DNA of 25,160 nt from a virus. Positions 1 through 24,900 of this stretch are shown here, piece after piece (position 1 is the stretch's first letter; every line of letters begins with the position of its first letter). The translations under genes and the position numbers were made by a program. The notes beneath the pieces are model-generated. The model was given only the letters and a program-made list of their open reading frames with translations. It did not search any database and was not told where the DNA came from. The stretch is from IMG/VR virus record IMGVR_UViG_3300036814_000619, positions 1 through 25,160 of that record. One strand, 5' to 3'.

Positions 1-25
1 ATCTAAAGTGAAAATGATTCCCCTA

Positions 26-44
26 TACCAGTTAAACGCTGGTA
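26..44. repeat. Hairpin, 6-bp stem
   Basis: TACCAG (26-31) and CTGGTA (39-44) are perfect reverse complements around a 7-base loop. A T-rich stretch follows at 50-62, so a weak terminator is possible, but there is no continuous T run directly after the stem. Confidence 0.4.
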
Positions 45-86
45 ACCGTTCTTTTGACTTTTAACCTAGTTTTCATTCCTTCCTAC

Positions 87-130
87 GGGGGCCAGCTCAA
101 GTCTTCCTACTTCTTCCAAGGCTGGTCCCC
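87..130. repeat. Hairpin, 10-bp stem with one wobble
   Basis: GGGGGCCAGC (87-96) pairs with GCTGGTCCCC (121-130), with a single G-T wobble, around a 24-base pyrimidine-rich loop. The stem is long and GC-rich and has no trailing T run on either strand, so it looks more like a structural RNA or DNA element than a terminator. Confidence 0.5.
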
Positions 131-161
131 ACTTATAATAAGCACTTACTCTGCGGCGGAT

Positions 162-209
162 CGGCTAATCTCTTTTTTAAGTTCTAATATTAGAACTGGA
201 GATTAGTCG
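162..209. repeat. Nested inverted repeat with an 18-base perfect palindrome
   Basis: An outer stem pairs CTAATCTC (165-172) with GAGATTAG (199-206). It extends outward by a G-T wobble and two further pairs to 162/209. Inside it lies AGTTCTAATATTAGAACT (180-197), an 18-base perfect palindrome, next to a T6 run (173-178). Such a stem within a stem can be a cruciform, a protein-binding site or a structured RNA. Its position upstream of the early genes fits an operator or origin element, but that is inference. Confidence 0.6.
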
Positions 210-215
210 GTCCAT
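177..215 (-). CDS. Possible 12-codon leader-type mini-ORF
   Basis: On the - strand a perfect AGGAGG (222-227) lies six bases ahead of an ATG (215-213). The frame runs 12 codons (MDRLISSSNIRT) to a TAA at 179-177. Its last codons are the 18-base palindrome at 180-197, so translation would run through the hairpin, as in attenuator leaders. No downstream - strand gene is visible before the window edge. It may be chance. Confidence 0.2.
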   Translation of the reverse strand: MDRLISSSNIRT

Positions 216-264
216 TATTAGCCTCCTAGCGCAACCCAGCCCTCACGCGGAAAGCATCGTGGAA

Positions 265-290
265 AGGGCTTATATATCATGATCAGCCCT
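265..290. repeat. Hairpin, 6-bp stem with AT-rich loop
   Basis: AGGGCT (265-270) and AGCCCT (285-290) are perfect complements around a 14-base AT-rich loop that itself contains the palindrome TGATCA. There is no T run after it. Confidence 0.35.
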
Positions 291-296
291 GGCTCC

Positions 297-327
297 GGGG
301 GGGACCGGCTACCCTATACCCCCCCCC
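297..327. repeat. G7 and C9 homopolymer pair
   Basis: A run of seven G (297-303) is followed 15 bases later by a run of nine C (319-327). The two can pair into a very stable all-GC stem, and the G run could instead join in G-quadruplex folding. Homopolymers this long are also prone to polymerase slippage and read error, so the exact lengths should be treated with care. Confidence 0.5.
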
Positions 328-388
328 ATCGTCGCATTCTGGCATAGTCCGGTAAGATGCATTATGGGATGTCAGGATCGGATTGTAG

Positions 389-402
389 GGTAACTCGTTA
401 CC
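389..402. repeat. Tight inverted repeat GGTAAC-TC-GTTACC
   Basis: GGTAAC (389-394) and GTTACC (397-402) are perfect complements with a two-base centre, the form of a compact protein-binding palindrome. A second, looser hairpin CCTAG (401-405)/CTAGG (416-420) overlaps its right end. Confidence 0.4.
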
Positions 403-420
403 TAGTGCCAGTTTACTAGG

Positions 421-561
421 CTAGGTGAAAGCTTCCAGCATGGTGATACGATCGGATTCCACCTGGATCATCGAGTAGTTCGCGGATAGTTCGACGGCTA
501 CGGCTCCACTAGCAGGATCGGCATCCAAGTTACCCCTACAATTAGAACACGAACCATCCAT
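421..561 (-). CDS. Possible 46-residue protein with CxxC
   Basis: This is the longest open frame in the left intergenic region. It runs from ATG at 561-559 to TAG at 423-421 and begins MDGSCSNC, so it carries a CxxC pair near the N-terminus. The remainder is mildly acidic with no repeat or membrane segment. A TAG lies directly before the ATG, fixing the start. No convincing ribosome binding site precedes it, and it runs opposite to all genes between 646 and 7373. It could be the first gene of a leftward unit or a chance ORF. I do not recognise it. Confidence 0.25.
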   Translation of the reverse strand: MDGSCSNCRGNLDADPASGAVAVELSANYSMIQVESDRITMLEAFT

Positions 562-590
562 CTAAAATAAAATCCACTAACCCAAACCAA

Positions 591-620
591 TTGTTGCGGT
601 AATCTTGGAAAGGTATTACC
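591..620 (+). promoter_or_regulatory. Candidate promoter with overlapping palindrome
   Basis: TTGTTG (591-596) and TATTAC (614-619) are spaced by 17 bases, resembling a weak sigma-70 promoter just upstream of the first + strand gene at 646. An inverted repeat GGTAAT (598-603)/ATTACC (615-620) spans the spacer and overlaps the -10 box, as an operator would. The match is partial and the call is inference. Confidence 0.35.
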
Positions 621-645
621 TTATCACTATTGGAAATGAGGGAAG

Positions 646-750
646 ATGGAAGATGACGATGTCGCGGATGTGTTCGGATTCATAATGGCACTAGGTTTTC
701 TGGCCATATGGCCAACCTTGTACTTCATATCGTGCAATTGGGAAGGTTAG
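646..750 (+). CDS. Small 34-residue membrane protein
   Basis: An ATG at 646 follows a purine-rich GAGGGA (638-643) and opens a frame of 34 codons ending in TAG at 748-750, five bases before the next gene. The peptide starts with an acidic head (MEDDDVADVF) followed by one hydrophobic stretch of about 19 residues rich in Phe, Leu, Ile and Trp, with a short CNWEG tail. This is the form of a single-span membrane microprotein. It is the first gene of the + strand unit, and its stop lies close to the ribosome binding site of the next. No function can be assigned from sequence. Confidence 0.55.
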   Translation: MEDDDVADVFGFIMALGFLAIWPTLYFISCNWEG

Positions 751-754
751 GGAG

Positions 755-1006
755 ATGGGTTTAAACCATGATCGATTATCTAGATCGAGATCTGCAGCGA
801 TGGATCTGCTAGATCGTGCCGAAACTGCAGCAAGAAAGTTGACCACTGGAAAAGTATCAGAGTCTGACATCGCTGTTGAAGTTTCCGCTGAGGTTGAACT
901 ATTGGAAGATGAAGCGGCTGGAAATATCAGTCGTGGAGTAGATCCAGCGATCGAGTATGAATGGGTTGCCAATATCAAATTGCACCTGAAATCGTGGGGG
1001 TATTAG
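755..1006 (+). CDS. Hypothetical early protein, 83 residues
   Basis: The ATG at 755 lies directly after GGTTAGGGAG, which also contains the stop of the preceding microprotein, so the two are probably coupled. The protein has a basic N-terminus (RLSRSRSAA), an acidic middle (VEVSAEVELLEDEAAG) and an aromatic C-terminus. It looks soluble and mostly helical, with no Cys and no membrane segment. A second in-frame ATG at 800 is possible but has a poorer ribosome binding site. Its position next to the RadC-domain gene suggests an early accessory role. I do not recognise the family. Confidence 0.65.
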   Translation: MGLNHDRLSRSRSAAMDLLDRAETAARKLTTGKVSESDIAVEVSAEVELLEDEAAGNISRGVDPAIEYEWVANIKLHLKSWGY

Positions 1007-1019
1007 GGAGGTTGGGAAG

Positions 1020-1454
1020 ATGTCAGTTAGACTCGTAACTACTGAATTGGTGAGAGAATCCAGACCAGAAGAATTGGATCGGGTTAGTGGACCGGAAGAT
1101 GCTGGTCCGATTCTGCAGGATCTAATTGGTTCATCGGATAGGGAGAAATTCGTAGTACTCCATCTGGATATGCAGAACCAGATCATCGCATCGGAGATCG
1201 TATCCGTAGGCAGTTTGTGTGCGTCACTTGTCCATCCGAGGGAAGTATTCAAAGGATTGATCCTCAACAACGCTGCAAGTTTCATCGCTGGCCACAACCA
1301 CCCATCGGGGAATCTTGTAGCCAGTAGGGAAGACATGGCAGTAAAGACTCGCCTAGAATCGGCTGGTAAGTTGTTAGGAATCCAGATGCTGGATTTTATG
1401 ATCGTGAGTCCAGATGGGTATGTTGGCGGTAAGAATGTTAGGAGTAGGGAATAA
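1020..1454 (+). CDS. Stand-alone RadC-type JAMM (MPN+) domain protein
   Basis: At 144 residues this is the JAB/MPN+ domain of RadC without the helix-hairpin-helix N-terminus of bacterial RadC (about 220 residues). The metal site is complete: Glu59 in a SEIVSVG context, then HNHPSGN with His92 and His94, seven residues, Ser102 and Asp105, which fits the JAMM pattern HxHx7Sx2D. The flanking sequence (PREVFKGLILNNAASFIAGH, then RLESAGKLLGIQMLD) is typical of RadC. JAMM domains are zinc hydrolases; the substrate of RadC proteins is unknown. The ribosome binding site TTAGGGAGG precedes the ATG, and the stop overlaps the next ATG (TAATG). Short RadC proteins are common in phages and mobile elements. 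Confidence 0.9.
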   Translation: MSVRLVTTELVRESRPEELDRVSGPEDAGPILQDLIGSSDREKFVVLHLDMQNQIIASEIVSVGSLCASLVHPREVFKGLILNNAASFIAGHNHPSGNLVASREDMAVKTRLESAGKLLGIQMLDFMIVSPDGYVGGKNVRSRE

Positions 1455-1654
1455 TGGGCGATGTGAAGTGGTATCTAGGTGGTGGTGGTGCGGTCCCGAC
1501 ATTCTGGATATGTTCCACATCTTGTATCGCGGATAGTCCAGACGATGTTGACCTAGTGGACTATTGCATTTTAGTTACTCCGGACAAGGGTGCAAGATGT
1601 GGGAATTGTGATCGCGTCGCGGTATTTGATTTTCCAATTGAAAGGAAAGAATGA
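1454..1654 (+). CDS. Cys-rich 66-residue hypothetical protein
   Basis: The ATG overlaps the stop of the RadC-domain gene (TAATG) and the TGA overlaps the next ATG (ATGA), so this gene is embedded in a coupled operon. It has five cysteines, with Cys20 and Cys24 in ICSTSC, Cys38, and Cys49/Cys52 in CGNC, a spacing that could bind zinc. A glycine run (LGGGGAVP) lies near the N-terminus. No membrane segment is seen. The family is not recognised; a small zinc-ribbon protein is the best guess. Confidence 0.65.
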   Translation: MGDVKWYLGGGGAVPTFWICSTSCIADSPDDVDLVDYCILVTPDKGARCGNCDRVAVFDFPIERKE

Positions 1655-1800
1655 TGGATCTGGAGACATTACAGAGAATGCGCGATGAGTGTATCAAACT
1701 TGAAACCCATCGTGCTAGGTGGTTCCGACGGGTTGCCAGTACGATGGAAATTGAGGATCTACCAGATGATGACGATGACGATGAAAAGGATTCACAATGA
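1651..1800 (+). CDS. Small acidic-tailed protein, 49 residues
   Basis: This frame fills the gap between two longer genes exactly. Its ATG overlaps the preceding TGA (ATGA at 1651-1654) and its TGA overlaps the following ATG (ATGA at 1797-1800). The first codons are ATG ATG, with GAAAGGAAAG as ribosome binding site. The N-terminal 35 residues are predicted helical and basic (RARWFRRVAS) and the C-terminus is strongly acidic (DDDDDDEKDSQ). The perfect start-stop coupling on both sides makes this a real gene despite its size. Function is unknown. Confidence 0.65.
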   Translation: MMDLETLQRMRDECIKLETHRARWFRRVASTMEIEDLPDDDDDDEKDSQ

Positions 1801-2693
1801 GAAAATCCTACCCCATCATCTCGCCTAGTCAGTTGTGGAAATACTCCGATGCAGATTGTGGATCCCGGAGCAGTATCCGCGCGGAGATACGCGATACATG
1901 GTCCAGAATCCAGATTCGCGCACTAGGTTTAGGATTCAGGAAAGTTATTCCAATTCTCCCGGTAGCGGATTCGAGCATAAATATTTTCGGTAGTGGAACC
2001 AAGACGGAAAAGGGAGAATCCATACCGGAACCTGTCAAGACTCTCATCTGGTACGGTTCTCCCGGTAGGGAATCCGGAGTGGAAATGTGCGATAACAGAT
2101 CGCCGGCGTGTACTGCTGGATGTCTCGGTCACGGATGTTGGCATCTGAAAATCAGATCGGGTAAGAATTCCAAACTGTGGAAGACAATGCTACTAGTAGG
2201 GAATCCTGACCTATTCATCCGACTATTAATGTTAGAGCTAGACAGTCACATCCGATCCTGTGAAAGAAATTCCATCGAACCTGCCGCGCGAATTGACGGT
2301 AGTACCGATACCGGGATCGGTGATGTGTTGTCGGGATTCGACAGGTTCTCCGATTGCAATTTCTACGATTACAGCAAATCCACATCGCGACTAAGTAGAT
2401 TCCTATCGGGTAAGTTTCCAGACAATCGGCATCTTACCTATTCAAGAAGTGAAAAGAACCATCGACAGTCAGTTGATATCGTCAACCGTGGTGGATCGGT
2501 TGCGGTTCCAGTCAATTTAAAGCGGCACGAATTCCCATCAACATGGTGCGGTATGCCAGTAGAAGATGGTGACCGACACGATGTGAGATACCGAGATACT
2601 CCAGGAACATGGCAATTTCTAGAGTGGAAAGGACAGGCTAGTAGGAAACACGCTGTGGCTAGTGGATTTTGTGTATCGGTGAAGGGATGTTGA
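1797..2693 (+). CDS. Gp88-family phage protein
   Basis: The 298-residue product matches what I know of the phage 'gene product 88' family. It has a cysteine cluster at Cys98, Cys105, Cys109 and Cys114 (CDNRSPACTAGCLGHGC) and then a basic helix with a NPDLFIRLLMLEL segment. These are followed by three strand-like motifs in fixed order: ARIDGSTDTGI (about 164-174), NFYDYSK (188-194) and HLTYSRSE (212-219). The C-terminus has the family's EDGDRHDVRY (256-265). The molecular function of Gp88 proteins is not established. The cysteine cluster followed by repeated strand motifs would suit a metal- or Fe-S-binding barrel, which is inference. The gene starts within an ATGA overlap and ends over the next tiny ORF. 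Confidence 0.8.
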   Translation: MRKSYPIISPSQLWKYSDADCGSRSSIRAEIRDTWSRIQIRALGLGFRKVIPILPVADSSINIFGSGTKTEKGESIPEPVKTLIWYGSPGRESGVEMCDNRSPACTAGCLGHGCWHLKIRSGKNSKLWKTMLLVGNPDLFIRLLMLELDSHIRSCERNSIEPAARIDGSTDTGIGDVLSGFDRFSDCNFYDYSKSTSRLSRFLSGKFPDNRHLTYSRSEKNHRQSVDIVNRGGSVAVPVNLKRHEFPSTWCGMPVEDGDRHDVRYRDTPGTWQFLEWKGQASRKHAVASGFCVSVKGC

Positions 2694-2764
2694 TAACCAT
2701 CATCGGGATAGTAATTATCATGGTAGTGGTGCCAGAATTAGATCGTAGGAGAAATGGCCAATAG
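2687..2764 (+). CDS. Tiny membrane peptide, 25 residues
   Basis: An ATG at 2687 inside the last codons of the Gp88 gene follows GTGAAGGG and opens a 25-codon frame to TAG at 2762-2764. The peptide is one continuous hydrophobic helix (LITIIGIVIIMVVV) with a charged tail (ELDRRRNGQ), which would insert as a single membrane span. The overlap with the upstream stop and good spacing to the next gene (2780) support it, but such short frames can be chance. Confidence 0.4.
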   Translation: MLITIIGIVIIMVVVPELDRRRNGQ

Positions 2765-2779
2765 GAAAGTAGGTACAAA

Positions 2780-3184
2780 ATGAGACTGCAATTACTACAT
2801 AGGATGATCACCCGCCTGGATTGTGCGAGCTCCGGAGAATGGGGAGGGAGAATCCGTACACAGACATCCGATGGCATAGGTCACACAGATGATTCCCATA
2901 GTTATCGGGAGGAAAGAGGAACCATCATCCTGGGTGACGGTGCCGAAGTGGATAAGATACAGAATGCTAGCGACCGGGAGAAGCTAGGATTTTATCCGTT
3001 GACGACACCAGATGATTCTCCCCACTTCGGGATCTGGTACTCGGTTCGTTGTTGGCAGATCCTGATCTACGCCGAGGGCGATGTCACATGGGAGTCCTAC
3101 TCCGATGATTCTAATTTCTGGTCTGGTATCCGGAGACACGCCAGGTTTCATGGTCTGACTGCCCAATACCTGGAAAGCTTGTAG
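2780..3184 (+). CDS. Hypothetical protein, 134 residues
   Basis: An ATG at 2780 follows an AGGAAAGTAGG ribosome binding site. The product is soluble-looking, with three Trp-containing stretches (GEWGGRIRTQ, GIWYSVRCWQ, VTWESYSDD) and a His-rich C-terminus (RRHARFHG). There are two Cys and no membrane segment. It lies in the same + strand unit as the Gp88 gene with a 15-base gap after the tiny membrane ORF. No family is recognised. Confidence 0.6.
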   Translation: MRLQLLHRMITRLDCASSGEWGGRIRTQTSDGIGHTDDSHSYREERGTIILGDGAEVDKIQNASDREKLGFYPLTTPDDSPHFGIWYSVRCWQILIYAEGDVTWESYSDDSNFWSGIRRHARFHGLTAQYLESL

Positions 3185-3185
3185 G

Positions 3186-3287
3186 ATGGGGCGCGCAGGA
3201 TCGATTCTCCCGGATTTTATTGACTCGACCCGACCCATGGCACCCAAGAATCCTACCGCGCAGAGAAGGGAGGAGCTGTGCCGGTAG
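3186..3287 (+). CDS. Possible 33-residue ORF
   Basis: This frame opens at ATG 3186, immediately after the stop of the 134-residue gene, and closes at TAG 3285-3287, overlapping the GTG start at 3278. It is basic (KNPTAQRREELCR) with no membrane segment. The ribosome binding site is weak (GGAAAG at 3172-3177). It may be only the leader ahead of the strong GGGAGGAG site of the next gene. Confidence 0.25.
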   Translation: MGRAGSILPDFIDSTRPMAPKNPTAQRREELCR

Positions 3288-6886: not shown

Positions 6887-7114
6887 ATGCGCCCTGAAAA
6901 TATCGGCAGAAGACTCAAACTCAAACTTTCCTGGCCGCAAAAGTTTCACGATCAAATCGAAGACCTCGAACACGAAGTCTTTTGGGATAGCAAAAAGAAA
7001 GCGGTCGTCCTCATCACGCCGCAAGCGGTCATCGAGTACACCCCCCCGCCCACGGGGCGAGAGCCACCTGGAGAAACAAGCGGCCCTCCTCATAAAAAGC
7101 CACCATCTCCCTGA
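6887..7114 (+). CDS. 75-residue ORF, likely N-terminal part of the nuclease
   Basis: The ATG at 6887 follows GGAAGTAGAAG and starts a basic, compact N-terminus (GRRLKLKLSWPQKFHDQIE) that continues plausibly to about residue 51 (LITPQAVIEY). After the C7 run at 7041-7047 the sequence turns into a low-complexity Pro/Gly string and stops at 7112-7114. The neighbouring frame takes up a conserved nuclease exactly after that run. The natural product may therefore be a fusion of this N-terminus to the nuclease, through a +1 frameshift or a one-base error in the C run. Taken alone it is an unknown small protein. Confidence 0.5.
   Translation: MRPENIGRRLKLKLSWPQKFHDQIEDLEHEVFWDSKKKAVVLITPQAVIEYTPPPTGREPPGETSGPPHKKPPSP
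7040..7048 (+). other. Candidate +1 slippery site or indel hotspot (C7)
   Basis: Read in the 6887 frame this is ACC CCC CCG. Proline codons followed by C are known +1 slippage sites, and a +1 step here joins the 6887 ORF directly to the nuclease frame. One fewer C in the true sequence would do the same. The sequence alone cannot tell programmed shift, natural mutation and read error apart. Confidence 0.4.
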
Positions 7115-9846: not shown

Positions 9847-10172
9847 TTCTTCTTTCTCTTCCTTATGAATTCCTTCAGGGTAGATTTCTTCAGGAAATCG
9901 TGGGCACTCTCCCTCCTGAGATCTATGATTTCCACTACCACTGATTTAGGAATCGCAGTCACCCCTCCAAAGGTGCGGTCCTTGGTTGCCGAGTCGGCTA
10001 GCACCATGACCTCTTCGTCTTCCTTCAAGATCCAACCCACTGTTACGCAGAGAATCGGCTCACATTCCTCAAGCACCTGCTCCAACTCCCCTACCCAGTC
10101 AGCTCGTGCAGTAATGTCTTTCCATGTTACCGCAACGATTCGACGAGGTAGAGGAGTCGGCTTGGTCGTCAT
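9843..10172 (-). CDS. Conserved-type small phage protein, 109 residues
   Basis: The product has a VTWKDITARADW start, an EPILCVTVGWILKED centre and a VTAIPKSVVVEIIDL end. Small phage proteins with a W-(K/E)-D-I motif, a central C-V-T-x-G and a late 'IP' strand are common, and this one fits them; their role is not known. It ends with a basic FIRKRKKK tail. The ATG follows AAGGT and lies 14 bases past the stop of the lipoprotein gene. The stop overlaps the 34-residue membrane ORF. Confidence 0.65.
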   Translation of the reverse strand: MTTKPTPLPRRIVAVTWKDITARADWVGELEQVLEECEPILCVTVGWILKEDEEVMVLADSATKDRTFGGVTAIPKSVVVEIIDLRRESAHDFLKKSTLKEFIRKRKKK

Positions 10173-10185
10173 AGGTTATACCTTA

Positions 10186-10431
10186 TTACTTGGCCTTGTC
10201 GATAGAGAGTCTTCTCTTCGTTGTCCACCATGTCGCCAGGGCCGCTGTGACAGCCACTGCTGCCTCCCGCCACGGTGAGGGTATCAGCGGTCGGGCAATC
10301 TCCACGGCTGTCTCAGCGTTACTGGTGACCCCTGGTGGCTCTCGGTAGAACAAGGTGTTGGACAGATCCTCAAGGGCACCGCACCCAACAAACAGCAACA
10401 ACATTATCAGAACTAATAGACTCCACTTCAT
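10186..10431 (-). CDS. Small lipoprotein with C-terminal span, outer-spanin-like
   Basis: The 81-residue product begins with a signal peptide (WSLLVLIMLLLFVGC) and a lipobox cysteine at Cys17. A periplasmic stretch of about 35 residues follows, then a second hydrophobic segment (EAAVAVTAALATWWT, about 56-70) and a basic tail. Its ATG overlaps the stop of the upstream membrane/coiled-coil gene (ATGA), the usual layout of an inner/outer spanin pair. Outer spanins are small lipoproteins, but a C-terminal membrane span is instead a mark of single-chain (unimolecular) spanins, and at 81 residues it is short for one. The ribosome binding site GAGAGGAG is strong. Spanin identity is inference. Confidence 0.6.
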   Translation of the reverse strand: MKWSLLVLIMLLLFVGCGALEDLSNTLFYREPPGVTSNAETAVEIARPLIPSPWREAAVAVTAALATWWTTKRRLSIDKAK

Positions 10432-15395: not shown

Positions 15396-18300
15396 TATTC
15401 TCTCTCCTGCGCGTGGATCTTGTACCCAGCCTCTAGAACCTTGAAGAACTGATCGTTTGTTAAAGCCATAATAGAAGCACCATCGCCTGGGACGAGACCG
15501 GCAATCGTGATCTTCAGCTTTGCTAGTTCCTCATTTGGATTCGTTCCCCATTCAATGTCATACTTCCGGCTCGCTTCGGTGTAGTATCTTTTTATCCACC
15601 CAGCCCTCTTGTTTGAGTCCGCTGCGCCAGGAATAAGGCCGAACTGGCCGAAGATCGCCTCGGCCTCGCCGCCGATGTTTCCATACAAGGCAGAGGCCAC
15701 CCTGTTCGTGTACTCTGGATTCTCAGAAACCACTTCCTGTACAAGCCCGACATCAGTATGCCACCCTGGTGGAACATAACCCCCTGGGGGGGGCATCAGT
15801 GACCCAGTCGCGATATTCTCCTTGATCCATACCTCAACATTCTTCTCTACAACACGAGGGTCGCCGAGTGGAACATCAAACGCACGGGCACCAGGACCAA
15901 GGTGGACAATAGTGTCGATGGGATTGAGGGGGAACTCGCTTGGACCTTGTTGTGGGCCTGGGGGCACCTGAACCCAACTACCGGGCTTAGTTGGATGGTC
16001 CGCACGAAACTGAGAACCCTGTATGGTGGGGGTCGAAGCCACTAACGCCCTCATTGCGTCGGGGGTGAGCCTAGAGGCTGCGCCGGCAGGAATCTCGGTA
16101 GGGTACTGCTTCATAAACTCTTCTGGATCGTCGGCAAATCTCTGGGCCAATCTATCGTGGAGCTGGTGGAGAGACATCTCATAAACATATTGTTGGTATT
16201 CAGGAGAGTGGAGGGCAATATCGCCAGATCCTTGGAACCGCCAAAATGCGGCAAACTTCGACCTGGCTTTTAGTGCCCAAGGCTGCAACTTAATCTCTTC
16301 ACCGTCCACTGTTATCGTGTCGGACGCGCCCGATGACGGGTCTAATACCCGAGCATTATGGTCGAGGATATCTTTGAACTCTGGAACCAGCTCTGGATTT
16401 CTAAGCAAGGCTGGTGGCACTTTCCCTGAACTCAGCAGAACTTGCCCTGCTAGTTCGTTACGGTTTCTTGTCTTCTCTAAACCGCGATTTCTCCACCGGG
16501 CAAAGTCTTTCTCAAATATTTTTAGTTCTTTCGCATTAGCCTCATCAAACGGCTCGTTACCGATCAACGACCGCTGCACCATTCCAGAGAGGTGGCTGAA
16601 CACAGCTGTCGTTCCATTCCACATCGCTGAAGAAAGCTGTTCAACATTATTAGTAGCCTTACTACCTTGTATTTCAATCCATCCACCAAGGGTTCCCCGC
16701 TTGAAGTAACCGTCGCCAAGAGGAACCAAGGAGTCGATATACGCGTCTGAGATCTCTTCCCGAGTATCGAAGGTGAGCGGATCCTGGCCTGCCGGGGTCG
16801 GCCCCACCGCCGCTCGGAAAGAGTCTTTGTACTGTGGCTCGAAAATGAACTCAGTGCCCTGCGTGTTCTTGATTAGTCCCGACCGAGAATCGCCATCCTT
16901 CGGAAAAAACGAGACGGTGTATTTGGAAGATTTACCACCCATCGTTACTGTAGATAATGGCTGGATATGCAAGTTCGGTGCGATATCGCTGAAGAACTCC
17001 TCCTCGGTTATGCCATCAAGAAAGTTCGTTTGACCTCCCGACAGGACTTTGAACAACTCATCATAGATCCAGGCTTCCGAGTCAGCGGGATTTCCAGAGT
17101 TGTCCGTTCTTTGTTCTTCTGGAAGACTGATCTGATGGAAGAACGACTGACCGTTCCTCTTGATAGGTGGATAAGCGTTCAGGACTTGAATCACTGATTG
17201 GTTGATTGCTAACCCAATCTTCTCAGCGTCACCGTAAGTGCTGTACTCAGGGTTGGCTTGGATCGTTTGCAAGTTATTCCCGTAGTAGTTGTTCATTACA
17301 AGATTCGTGAACGAGTCCTTGCCACCCTGAGACATTGATACTGTTGCTGGATTACCATTCACGGTCTCTGAAATTAACTCTATGAGATCGGCTCGGTCAG
17401 CGGCTGAGGTTCTCCCGCCTCCTGCCCCTTGACCAGTGCCACGGCTCGGTTGGGCGACAGCGTTGACCACCGCTTGGGCAGGAGGTTGGTTTCCTCTGGC
17501 ATTGCCGTAGTTGACGATCTCACTGATTCGCTTTGGAGAAAACTTAAACCCATCAGGGAGTGCTTTCACCGGAATGAATCCAAGCTCCCCCATAAGATCT
17601 GACGCAGTTTGCCAAGCACCTGGGTCGCCCTCGTCCATTCTGTTGTTAAGTGCCTCAGCAAGTGAAGGCAGCAAAGCACCGTATTTATTTGAAATCTTTA
17701 TGAGGGCTTCGGAGTTAAAATTGAGGAGTTCTGGAGGCAGAGCGGATAAAGACTTGTCGAGGTCTACCGGCCTGGAACTGGTCTCACCCAGAACAGCATC
17801 AAGATTCCCGCTAGGACCATTCGCATTTGCTATTCTAACCGAATCACGGCCAGCTTTGTTGATCCGATCTTGGGCGCGCCCCCCCATCTCTACCGAAGCA
17901 AAGAGAGTCGCCGCATCTTCTCCGAATCCTGCTCTAGCCAGTGCGTCGATTACTGCTATTCCTCTTTCAAGGTCACCCCTATCAGGAGAATTGTACTGGA
18001 TCCCGCCCGTTGGGGAAGCGGTGAAAGATCCATCTTCCGGCTGAGACATCTGTGTGGCAGTAGACCCGATATATCCTTCACGGTTTTGTAAAACATCTCC
18101 ACGAATCCTATCGACGATGTTCCTTGGAAGATTCGCGACACCACCTGAACCAGCCTCGGCGAAGGCTCCAAGGAAATAATCCATACGGCCCTCGGCACCA
18201 CGAGAGAAATACGAGGTCCGCATTCCATTTAGCGCAGTGGTCTGGACTGCCGATAACTCGCCAGCATTGATAAGCCCTCGCTCGAGAAGACCGGCAGCAT

Positions 18301-21928: not shown

Positions 21929-24900
21929 CTATCTCCTCACATCAAGCAATGAAGTGGACGAGAACATCCGAGGACTACTCTCTTGACCGTCCACTCCTTT
22001 AGCCGCTAACAATGCGTCAGCTGCCCGTTGAGCGATGTATGCCTGTTCAGTAGGAGGCTTACCAAAGTTTGTCGCAACATGAGCAGCGAGGGCTAGCCCC
22101 ATTGCATGAGCAACTAATGGAGACAACAAACCAATGTCGGCTCCAATATCCATCACATACTCTAAGGAAATAGTCCCCTCATTCGACAGCAAGCAACGCT
22201 TTAATATCGGTGGGGTGGCTCCGTCACTTACGACTTCGATCTCCCACTGATTCTGGCCCATACCACCGTTCGGTTGCATCGGAAGACCATTAATCGTTAA
22301 TGCTCTCAAATAGTCAGTAGGTAGGTTATATGCCTTTGCCCAGCGCGGGCCAGATGGGGCAACAGCATCGCCAGCAGAGTCGTTGAAAGTTTCCAGGTCA
22401 ATCGTTCTCTTTGCCCCATTCCATGCGTGGTCTGCTAGGAACTGAGCGCGGAAACCACCTTCCCATACAGTGTTCAACAAAATCGCCTGGGAAGAACCAT
22501 CACTGGTAGTCCCGATGGTTCCAACTCCTAGTTCAACTAACGCAACATTCCAGATTTGTACTACTGTCACAGCTTCTCCTTCATTTAAAAGCGGAGCCGA
22601 AATGCTCCCTATTCCGTCGATAACTGCTCCGCCGGGCAAGGTGCCGGTCAAGCCAGTGCCCAAAGAACCAACCCCGTCGATAACTACTTGTGCGAAAAAA
22701 CGGCTTCCATTGCCTTGGCCCACTGAGGCAGAACTTGAAAAAGATGCTTCAAGGTCTCCAACGAAATCTCTCGCGCCACCCGTGGACGATGCAGTAGTTG
22801 ATACAGTTCCTGATACCGGAACTGTTGCGCCAAATGTCACTGATACCGTGTCAACCACTATACATGAAATAGAAATCGGGATCTGCGACTCACTCGTGGT
22901 AGCCGAGATTCCATGAACAGATACTGATTTCTGTAACGGATCTGACGGTCCTACTGGTTGACGACCAGAAGAAACCACCATCGCTGCGGAGATTGACACT
23001 GACTGAGACGGCAGGATCCTCGTAGCCGTTGCTGACACATGGGCGATAACCGCTTCCAGGACACTAGGAGCCAGGTCGTTAACGCTCGTGGAAGACGATG
23101 CGCTTATGGTCGCTGCCGATGATGCCGGCCTTGAATAATCTACAGTAACGGCAACTGATCCGGTCGAGGAAAGACTTGCAGCCCCCGTACCAAACTGACC
23201 TAACTCTCCTGTTACGGTTGAAATCACACTAGCAAAGGCCGAGGCGGGCCTCGAGAAGACCATGGAAAAGGACACTGTTGGTCGGTCGAATGTCATAGAT
23301 GCAGTAGGTGTCTCGACACCAGCTACTGTCCCTACAGCGGTCGAGACGAGCGTAGCAGCGGAGGTCGCCGGCAACTCGTAGATCACCGATACCGTGGATG
23401 TTGGCAAGGTAAAGCTAGCGTCAGAAGTGGCGGTTCCCTGATAGGCAAGGGCGGCGATGGTCGAGGAACCGATGGTTGCTGCGCCGGATGCGGTCCGGGT
23501 GTAGGTCACCGCGCCGACCGTGCCGGTAGCCGAAGAGACTACCGAAGCCGCAGCGGTAGCGGAGCCAGCGAACGACGCAAGGGCGATGGTCGCCGAACCG
23601 ATGGTCGCTGCACCGGATGCGGTCCGGGTGTAGGTCACCGCTGCCACCGTGCCGGTAGCCGACGAGACTACCGAGGCCGCGGCGGAGGCCGGGGCTGCGA
23701 ACGACGCGCTGCCCGAAGCGGTCGCCGAGAGGATCCCCTCCAGGAAGGTCGAGTGGGGAAAGACCACAAACTCCACGACAGCCACGGTCGAGGAACCGAT
23801 GGTCGCCGAGGCGGATGCGGCACGGGTGTAGGTCACCGCTGCCACCGTGCCGGTGGCCGAAGAGACTACCGAAGCCGCAGCGGAGGCCGGGGCTGCGAAC
23901 GCCGCGCGGCCCGAAGCGGTCGCCGAGAGGATCCCCTCCAGGAAGGTCGAGCCATCCGAGACCACAAACTCCACGAACGCCACGGTCGCCGAGCCGATGG
24001 TCGCCGAAGCGGCTACCGACTGGGGAACTGGTCCGCTCGATTTCTCCTTGAAGAAGAGCGACATCGAAACGCCGCCGTTATGACTTTGGGTACTAGGGGT
24101 GCTGACCCATCCATAATAAGTAGACCCAGTCGTTGACCAGTTTGCATCCATATTAGAGAACGCACCTGAGCCAGTATATTTCTTGAAGAACCAAGAAGCA
24201 GTATGTGCAGCCGCTGCGTTGTCTTCAGAATGTCCGCCTTTTGTCGTACCGCTCGTAGGCCAAGTTTGGGCGAGTGTATCCACCTCAGTTCCGCCCGCTG
24301 GTACATTGTTAATGCTAGAAGCAGGAGCTGCCGGGGGGTCTATTTGTTGGCGACGACGAACAGTGGAGCAAAAAACATTCATAAACTCATCGCCAACATC
24401 TGTTGAGTTCCATGAACTATCCGTTGGCTTGTTCCACCGCCGATAGACCAATTTCGCCATCATTGTCATTGATGATTTGCAAGAGGCTTGCATCGACGAG
24501 ATCGTAGCCGTTGAATTGTCTGCTCCTCGAATGACAAATACCCGCAAAGTTCTAGGGCAACTCCCTCCGCCAGTGGCAGATACATCCGTATAAGAAAGCT
24601 GTTGATTCGTCAGGGCATGGCTACTCGTGATTGGAAGAACCCAGAGGCCACCAGCCTGTCGGCCACCGGAAGAGGAAGTGGAACGGAGATAACCGAAGTC
24701 AAGAAAGTCGGTGGTAATACCAGTTGTGCCTGAAGAGTTAGTGTAGGTTGCGACTTGATTGAGGATGTGTGAGTTGCCATTGCCAGGGTTTAACGCATTA
24801 TTTTGCCGCTCCTCTGAGTGCATTAAGACAAGGAAGTCTCCGGCTAAGAGCGTGTTAGGAGCAGATCCATTGATTGAATCAATAGTCAGGTGGAGAATAC

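Follow-up and report, generated by a model that had tools for sequence, protein, structure and literature searches.

A conserved structured RNA at the head of the early genes of a tailed-phage lineage and its possible role as an RNA-primed replication origin

Why does a phage genome whose second-longest gap between genes measures 206 bases leave its first 645 bases without a gene? The question arises from a complete 25,160-base virus record, analyzed here as a whole and referred to below as the window, in which positions 1–645 had been singled out in a preliminary description as a hairpin-dense stretch free of long ORFs and as a candidate replication origin, early promoter or structured phage RNA. 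By our own gene set, this is indeed the longest gene-free gap, and each of its six frames carries 10–17 stops; the equivalent stretches of the related contigs L003, L004, L005 and L009 carry 7–24 stops per frame. Thus, conserved coding potential is not seen in the closest relatives of the window, with stops in every frame. What occupies the stretch instead, how far it extends, and what it might do for the phage are taken up in turn.

Position and limits of the gene-free region

To the right of the region the early genes run rightwards on the plus strand from position 755, with products that include a RadC-like protein, GP88, a YqaJ exonuclease and RecT; the virion and tail genes occupy the opposite strand, from 25,160 to 7,321. 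The GC skew flips at the region, where the direction of the genes flips too. A separate compositional feature is found at 23251–24250, where the GC content rises up to 0.70 within a protein of 1010 aa that matches a tail protein and contains repeated Ala/Ser-rich units.

The right limit at 645 is correct: a conserved small ORF for a membrane-like peptide of 34 aa, with related peptides in L003, L005 and L009, opens at 646 (646–750, plus strand) and terminates the non-coding region. The left limit is not biological, since position 1, which corresponds to L003 5248, is a cut contig end, and the feature extends upstream of it. Sixteen contigs of the lineage, the window included, reach the region and seven span it (L003, L004, L005, L009, L119, L123 and L126), whereas seven of 21 loci stop before it and are uninformative (L112, L116, L118, L120, L122, L124 and L125); a near-complete relative has 35.8 kb. 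In the relatives, a further 161 nt of structured RNA precede the position at which the window begins, comprising the helices P1a, P1b, P2 and P3 (L003 5087–5231) and a short conserved linker, P3 ending 17 nt upstream of the window (L003 5231). The whole region is 0.8–0.9 kb long, runs rightward and ends at the small ORF, and window positions 1–645 would be the larger 3' part of a folded untranslated RNA heading the early genes.

To the left of the promoter-like sequence described below lies a gene of 155 aa, which has 160 aa in L119 and is missing from L123 and L126; beyond it follow, on the opposite strand, a small gene and the gene for the terminase large subunit. The proximity of the latter is one point favoring a DNA element, i.e., a pac/cos packaging site or a protein-bound origin with hairpins that act as DNA. 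Another is that nine of the sixteen contigs end inside the region or at its edge (the window, L002, L013, L015, L017, L096, L110, L121 and L127). However, these ends are scattered, L110 ending at the very edge and several others sitting at G or C runs, and they may be read as the failure of assembly at hard sequence. Furthermore, the window has no DnaA-box-like TTWTNCACA, of which 1.4 would be expected by chance, and no iteron-like or tandem array is found in 1–800. We consider a DNA element improbable, and the strand-specific signals described below also argue for an RNA.

Folding and covariation along the region

The preliminary description had counted at least eight inverted repeats and two direct repeats in the stretch. 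Eight inverted pairs are listed for 1–760, of which six have arms separated by more than 100 nt and two use arms past 645, but the excess of hairpins over chance in 1–645 is mild. Against 100 dinucleotide shuffles of 1–645, there are six perfect stems of at least 7 pairs with loops of up to 60 nt (shuffle mean 2.1; reached by 4 of 100), one of at least 8 (0.5; reached by 35), seven stems of at least 9 with G-U pairs allowed (3.4; reached by 6) and four of at least 10 (1.3; reached by 4). Direct repeats do occur, as nine two-copy families of 8–17 nt, and nothing about them stood out. Folding of 1–650 gives a z of −2.6 on the plus strand, equaled by none of 20 shuffles, and of −0.3 on the minus strand, equaled by 10 of 20. 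The signal is carried by 81–240 (z −5.6, the second lowest among all 160-nt windows on both strands); besides it, only 161–320 falls below −2 among the plus-strand windows of the region, and much of 241–645 folds like shuffled sequence. The most stable fold relative to shuffles in the entire window lies elsewhere, on the minus strand at 10081–10240 (z −5.8), within a stable fold at 10001–10240 that surrounds the junction of two small genes. The mild hairpin count and the shuffle-like folding of much of 241–645 are what might be expected if the structure were fortuitous. Nevertheless, chance structure or a hidden coding sequence would hardly account for conservation with compensatory changes, for stops in all frames of five sequences, or for indels that do not come in threes in the alignment of relatives, and we regard it as very unlikely.

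The compensatory changes are most evident in P1–P3 (element 1), immediately upstream of the window. A model of this element built from L003, L004, L013, L005 and L009 recovers all five held-out relatives, which belong to two groups and range down to 63% terminase identity. Its covariance form scores 74.7 bits in L119, 68.3 in L121, 26.1 in L126, 24.1 in L127 and 24.0 in L123, as against 58.6, 53.7, 25.5, 24.2 and 25.0 bits, respectively, for a sequence-only model. Hence, structure gains 16 and 15 bits in L119 and L121 and none in the other three, i.e., it aids detection in the 79% group and not in the 63% group. Eight further loci in the held-out search, whose sequence ends short of the region or at its edge, gave no match, and neither did 74 of the 79 GP88-bearing loci, the remaining five being members of the lineage. 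A reverse-strand match in L004 at 22.8 bits, near the scores of L123, L126 and L127, shows that such a score can be reached by GC-rich inverted repeats alone; it was removed by a lower cut-off before covariation was counted.

Covariation was counted in ten of the twelve contigs in which the element is complete; the near-copies of L004 and L009, L015 and L096, were omitted. In these, 91.3% of 379 cells are paired (76.8 ± 1.3 in shuffles), 20 of 38 pairs are changed on both sides (13.3 ± 1.9), 57 cells are changed on both sides (20.6 ± 3.3), and covariation scores 0.519 (0.254 ± 0.020 in shuffles and at most 0.166 when slid), these figures leaning towards structure in that the alignment was fitted to it, the shuffles take no account of relatedness and the model had been built on five of the ten sequences. 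None of 500 shuffles matches these four measures; the number of further pair types is ordinary, being matched by 86 of 500. P1b is the clearest helix, with five of its eight pairs changed on both sides and 98.8% of its cells paired. In a control that asks how well arms from different relatives cross-pair, with lower values being better and arms chosen by eye, P1b gives 0.47, its inner part 0.78, the middle of P3 0.80, P1a 0.83 and P2 1.00, a value at which P2 gains little from the control. The cells of P1–P3 include 60 G-U as against 5 A-C combinations, and even with the bias that the structure was drawn on the plus strand, this excess fits a plus-strand RNA as the conserved form. Together with the folding signal being confined to that strand, it speaks against hairpins that act as DNA. 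RNAalifold applied to the whole region finds double changes in 21 of 164 pairs, with many pairs broken through misalignment of the variable parts, and for this reason the helices were analyzed separately.

Inside the window, the linker between P3 and P6 (1–86) begins in a conserved AUCUAA segment and leads to hairpin P6 (87–130; arms 87–96/121–130), with a pyrimidine-rich loop CUUCCUACUUCUUCC. The arms of P6 pair in relatives; eight sequences offer five distinct arm pairs (arms taken by eye), with one double-changed pair among six sequences, and its support is weak because the arms of different relatives also pair with each other (0.93). Hairpin P8 (158–213) has outer arms 158–172/199–213, with 97.8% of cells paired (at most 57.8% when slid) and two double-changed pairs, a result equaled by 52 of 500 shuffles. 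In its inner arms (181–186/191–196), five of six pairs are changed on both sides among six sequences, with a cross-pairing of 0.79, or 0.72 on distinct arms. The arms of P6 and of inner P8 were picked by eye because MAFFT misregistered them, and their self-pairing is consequently near 1.00 by construction. From these comparisons, P8 and, more weakly, P6 appear to keep their pairing through sequence change. A further stem, P7, is present as an extra only in L005 and L009, with 10 and 14 pairs of unrelated sequence, and is absent from the window and its closest relatives; in L096 a single base differs from L009 in P7 and breaks a pair (by eye).

P9 (239–276) consists of 239–243/265–269 with an inner CACG (244–247) and CGTG (258–261) and a conserved GUGGAAAGGGCUUAUAUA motif; its sequence and that of the motif are strongly conserved in L003, L004, L005, L009 and L013, the inner pairs reading CACA/UGUG in L119 (by eye), and P9 pairs badly in L009. 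P10 (297–327) opposes a G7 run (297–303) to a C9 run (319–327), and the relatives too have a G-run with a C-rich partner, the pairs hardly varying. P11 (348–369) pairs UCCGGUAA with UUAUGGGA around a central G-G mismatch; the stem is the same in six sequences, with one-sided changes only, and by eye it is seen in L119 and not in L123 or L126. From about 373 to 645 the region is poorly conserved, except for short blocks and a palindrome, and the long pairing of 382–395 with 528–542, which delimits a 3' domain (382–542), has by eye no counterpart in L005 or L009. The palindrome AAGGTATTACCTT (610–622), a possible operator before the small ORF, is kept in L002–L004, has a near copy in L009 and is degenerate in L005. 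Folded in isolation, element 2 has a structure shared between the groups only around the G/C runs. L119 (3785–4066) and L121 (71–352) have a 93-aa ORF on the minus strand, situated between P6 and the P9 element, and its end overlaps the 5' arm of P9 (by eye). Since this ORF splits the region, the region comprises two or more elements and is not a single rigid RNA.

These observations bear out the suggestion of a structured phage RNA, with compensatory changes and stops in every frame, the strongest set of changes lying just upstream of the window; the stems are conserved among the closest relatives of the window. We hold it highly probable that the region is a real, conserved structured RNA. 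A comparison of the window and eight relative loci with Rfam (cmscan) found no family that reaches its curated score in the region, and neither GOLLD nor ROOL does so anywhere in these sequences. Matches at E ≤10, all far below the curated scores, were set aside: the best are BjrC174 (27.4 bits against a curated 45; E 0.01) and mir-616 (E 0.011), both in L005, and, in the window, mir-2209 (E 0.044). Neither window 1–1500 nor L009 2620–3250 has a BLASTN match among phages. A pattern scan of genome contigs returned 11 stretches judged to be chance, three of which were weak in nhmmer over all loci (L105, L107 and L102; E 0.05–0.12) and eight unlisted. No description of this RNA was met in the literature searched, in which subscription journals had limited coverage.

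The size and setting recall the large ornate non-coding RNAs of the GOLLD and ROOL sort, with sizes given as 659 nt and often more than 800 nt in PMC12286853. By the same source, both often lie near tRNA islands. GOLLD is frequently, though not obligatorily, found close to tRNA genes or with such genes inside it. The present RNA might similarly be a free, trans-acting molecule, abundant in infection and forming its own particle: it is phage-borne, of similar size and stem-rich, several of its hairpins carry compensatory changes, and P7 behaves as a peripheral stem, unrelated in sequence between L005 and L009 and missing in the closest relatives of the window. Unlike those RNAs, however, it matches no Rfam family at the curated score, no tRNA is found in the window or in seven loci from four contigs (L009 included), the ORF of L119 and L121 divides it, and no clear 3' terminator was found. 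Such a role is a lesser possibility, somewhat less likely than the two cis-acting ones considered next.

The promoter-like sequence and the G strand of P3

An early promoter had also been proposed for the stretch. In ten of ten relatives, a hexamer starting with TTGA is followed after 17 nt (16 in L123) by a hexamer starting with TA and, 6–7 nt further, by a conserved GA at or just before P1a, the spacers differing in sequence between groups; the pattern was sought after it had first been seen by eye. A consensus promoter scanner passes over this position in L003, L005 and L009, because its rule requires a final T that is missing from those hexamers. A sigma-70 promoter before the structured RNA is likely, but it is located outside the window: counted leftward from the contig end, the −35 hexamer is reached after about 196 nt and the RNA probably starts at 161 nt. 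As seen by eye, the first G-run of the RNA has its complement in a C-run (or AGAACC) within the presumed promoter (L119 4360–4420, L121, L003 and L126), with a matched change between L119 and L121, though this complement precedes the presumed RNA start; this inverted complementarity between promoter DNA and the G-run is a point for the DNA-element alternative discussed above.

An odd feature of the region is the 3' arm of P3, which in all 12 contigs spanning P3 reads as G6–7, one to four bases, G7 and TTTT, and in the ten extracted sequences as G7-N2/3-G7-T4/5-GA. The opposing 5' arm varies between C and U; in 11 of 19 pairs only one side changes, mostly that of the pyrimidine. As pairing alone would allow A opposite U, the G strand seems to be further constrained. 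It matches a G-quadruplex motif in six of six sequences tested, and P3 is within the best fold of nine of nine sequences folded, and also, in three, with G-quadruplexes allowed. Three of the four runs of at least seven G in the 35.8-kb relative fall in the region. Nonetheless, the window has a G8 at 15786 and C7–8 runs at 7041, 8959, 9400 and 17879, and hence G/C runs as such are not unique to the region.

Phage early leader RNAs with conditional terminators are a known class, and the RNA could be a cis-acting leader of the early operon in which P3 with its U4–5 tract makes RNA polymerase pause or terminate conditionally, read-through is governed by the remainder of the RNA or by a protein bound to it, element 2 and the palindrome act on the small ORF, and replication is not involved. 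In keeping with this, the region stands directly before the early genes, P3, a long stem, is followed at once by UUUU(U) in ten of ten sequences, where an intrinsic terminator would have a GC-rich stem and a U-tract, the elements are separable, with an ORF between them in L119 and L121, and a conserved palindrome precedes the small ORF. Against it, a U4–5 tract is short for an intrinsic terminator, and a terminator scanner omits P3, though its rules (loop ≤8, 5 T in 8) exclude that stem. Moreover, most leaders are far shorter than this region, no Rfam leader family is matched, and a plain terminator leaves unexplained the unchanged G-runs facing a partner that drifts between C and U. We judge a leader about as likely as the RNA-primed origin to which we now turn; each is tentative.

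Replication genes and an RNA-primed origin

The early genes scanned yield only RadC, GP88, YqaJ and RecT; a methyltransferase is encoded further along. No DnaB_C or DNA_pol_A match was found in 12 records, several or most of which are fragments, with the controls registering in 14 and 10 of 14. No replication initiator is recognized by Pfam or PHROGs among the early proteins scanned, several of which lack an identification, and the early region may yet encode an unrecognized one; the AlphaFold model of a 291-aa early protein has a mean pLDDT of 35 and is uninformative.

The early region of L119 also has, on its transcribed (minus) strand, two type II hammerhead ribozymes about 1.2 kb apart (1372–1438 and 2628–2695; 50.5 and 49.4 bits, curated 37), which flank three small ORFs immediately ahead of the GP88 gene; as a tandem pair they could release or circularize the segment between. 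Within that segment, 1441–2058 (minus strand) has a weak, below-cut-off similarity to a Tad2-like domain of Thoeris anti-defense (E 0.0034). The Rfam scan finds no hammerhead in the window.

The lack of a recognized initiator, the host-type promoter, the long untranslated RNA and the G-tract followed by T together lead us to favor, at a probability of roughly 0.3, an RNA acting in cis as an RNA-primed replication origin akin to that of ColE1. In this scheme, transcription from the sigma-70 promoter would yield the untranslated folded RNA; transcription through G7-N2/3-G7-U4/5 might leave a lasting RNA-DNA hybrid or stop there; host RNase H and host polymerases would use the 3' end of the RNA to start copying; and the remaining RNA would set the frequency of initiation.

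Two known systems offer parallels. ColE1 has no plasmid-encoded initiator according to PMC5043065, and its RNA II is described in that paper and in PMC6317783 as an untranslated RNA with a host promoter several hundred nt before the working site and an essential guanine-rich stretch. Judged by sequence, the phage region may resemble it in its promoter-like hexamers, its G-rich stretch and the lack of a recognized initiator in the records scanned. It differs in belonging to a tailed-phage genome, with no match among plasmids in BLASTN of the 631-base L009 query (2620–3250), and no convincing promoter for an antisense RNA I was seen by eye. The mitochondrial CSB II of the H-strand origin, a further parallel for the G-tract (PMC6317783), is commonly G5–6AG7–8 with T-tracts downstream according to PMC5027508, and on that description it shares with the phage G strand two G-runs and a downstream T-tract, the runs being split by one base there and by two or three here. 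Unlike CSB II, the phage G strand, known from its sequence, has a pyrimidine partner in hairpin P3, and a bacterial polymerase would be expected to transcribe it. This partner is the main objection to a primed origin, for the predicted structure would already engage the G strand within its own RNA; the ORF that splits the region in L119 and L121 and the long G/C runs elsewhere in the window also weigh against it.

A conserved structured RNA without an Rfam match, at a fixed position throughout a lineage of phages, is of value on its own account. Somewhat more tentative than the primed origin as such is the wider proposition that these tailed phages, a lineage with genomes of about 36 kb, have no initiator, helicase or polymerase of their own and would instead combine a ColE1-like primer RNA, bearing a CSB II-like G7-N2/3-G7-U4, with RecT/YqaJ recombination. 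If the RNA primes replication, it would provide a tailed phage with an initiator-free, RNA-started origin, allow the question to be tested directly on a 0.9-kb fragment, and tie the origin chemistry of plasmids and mitochondria to that of phages.
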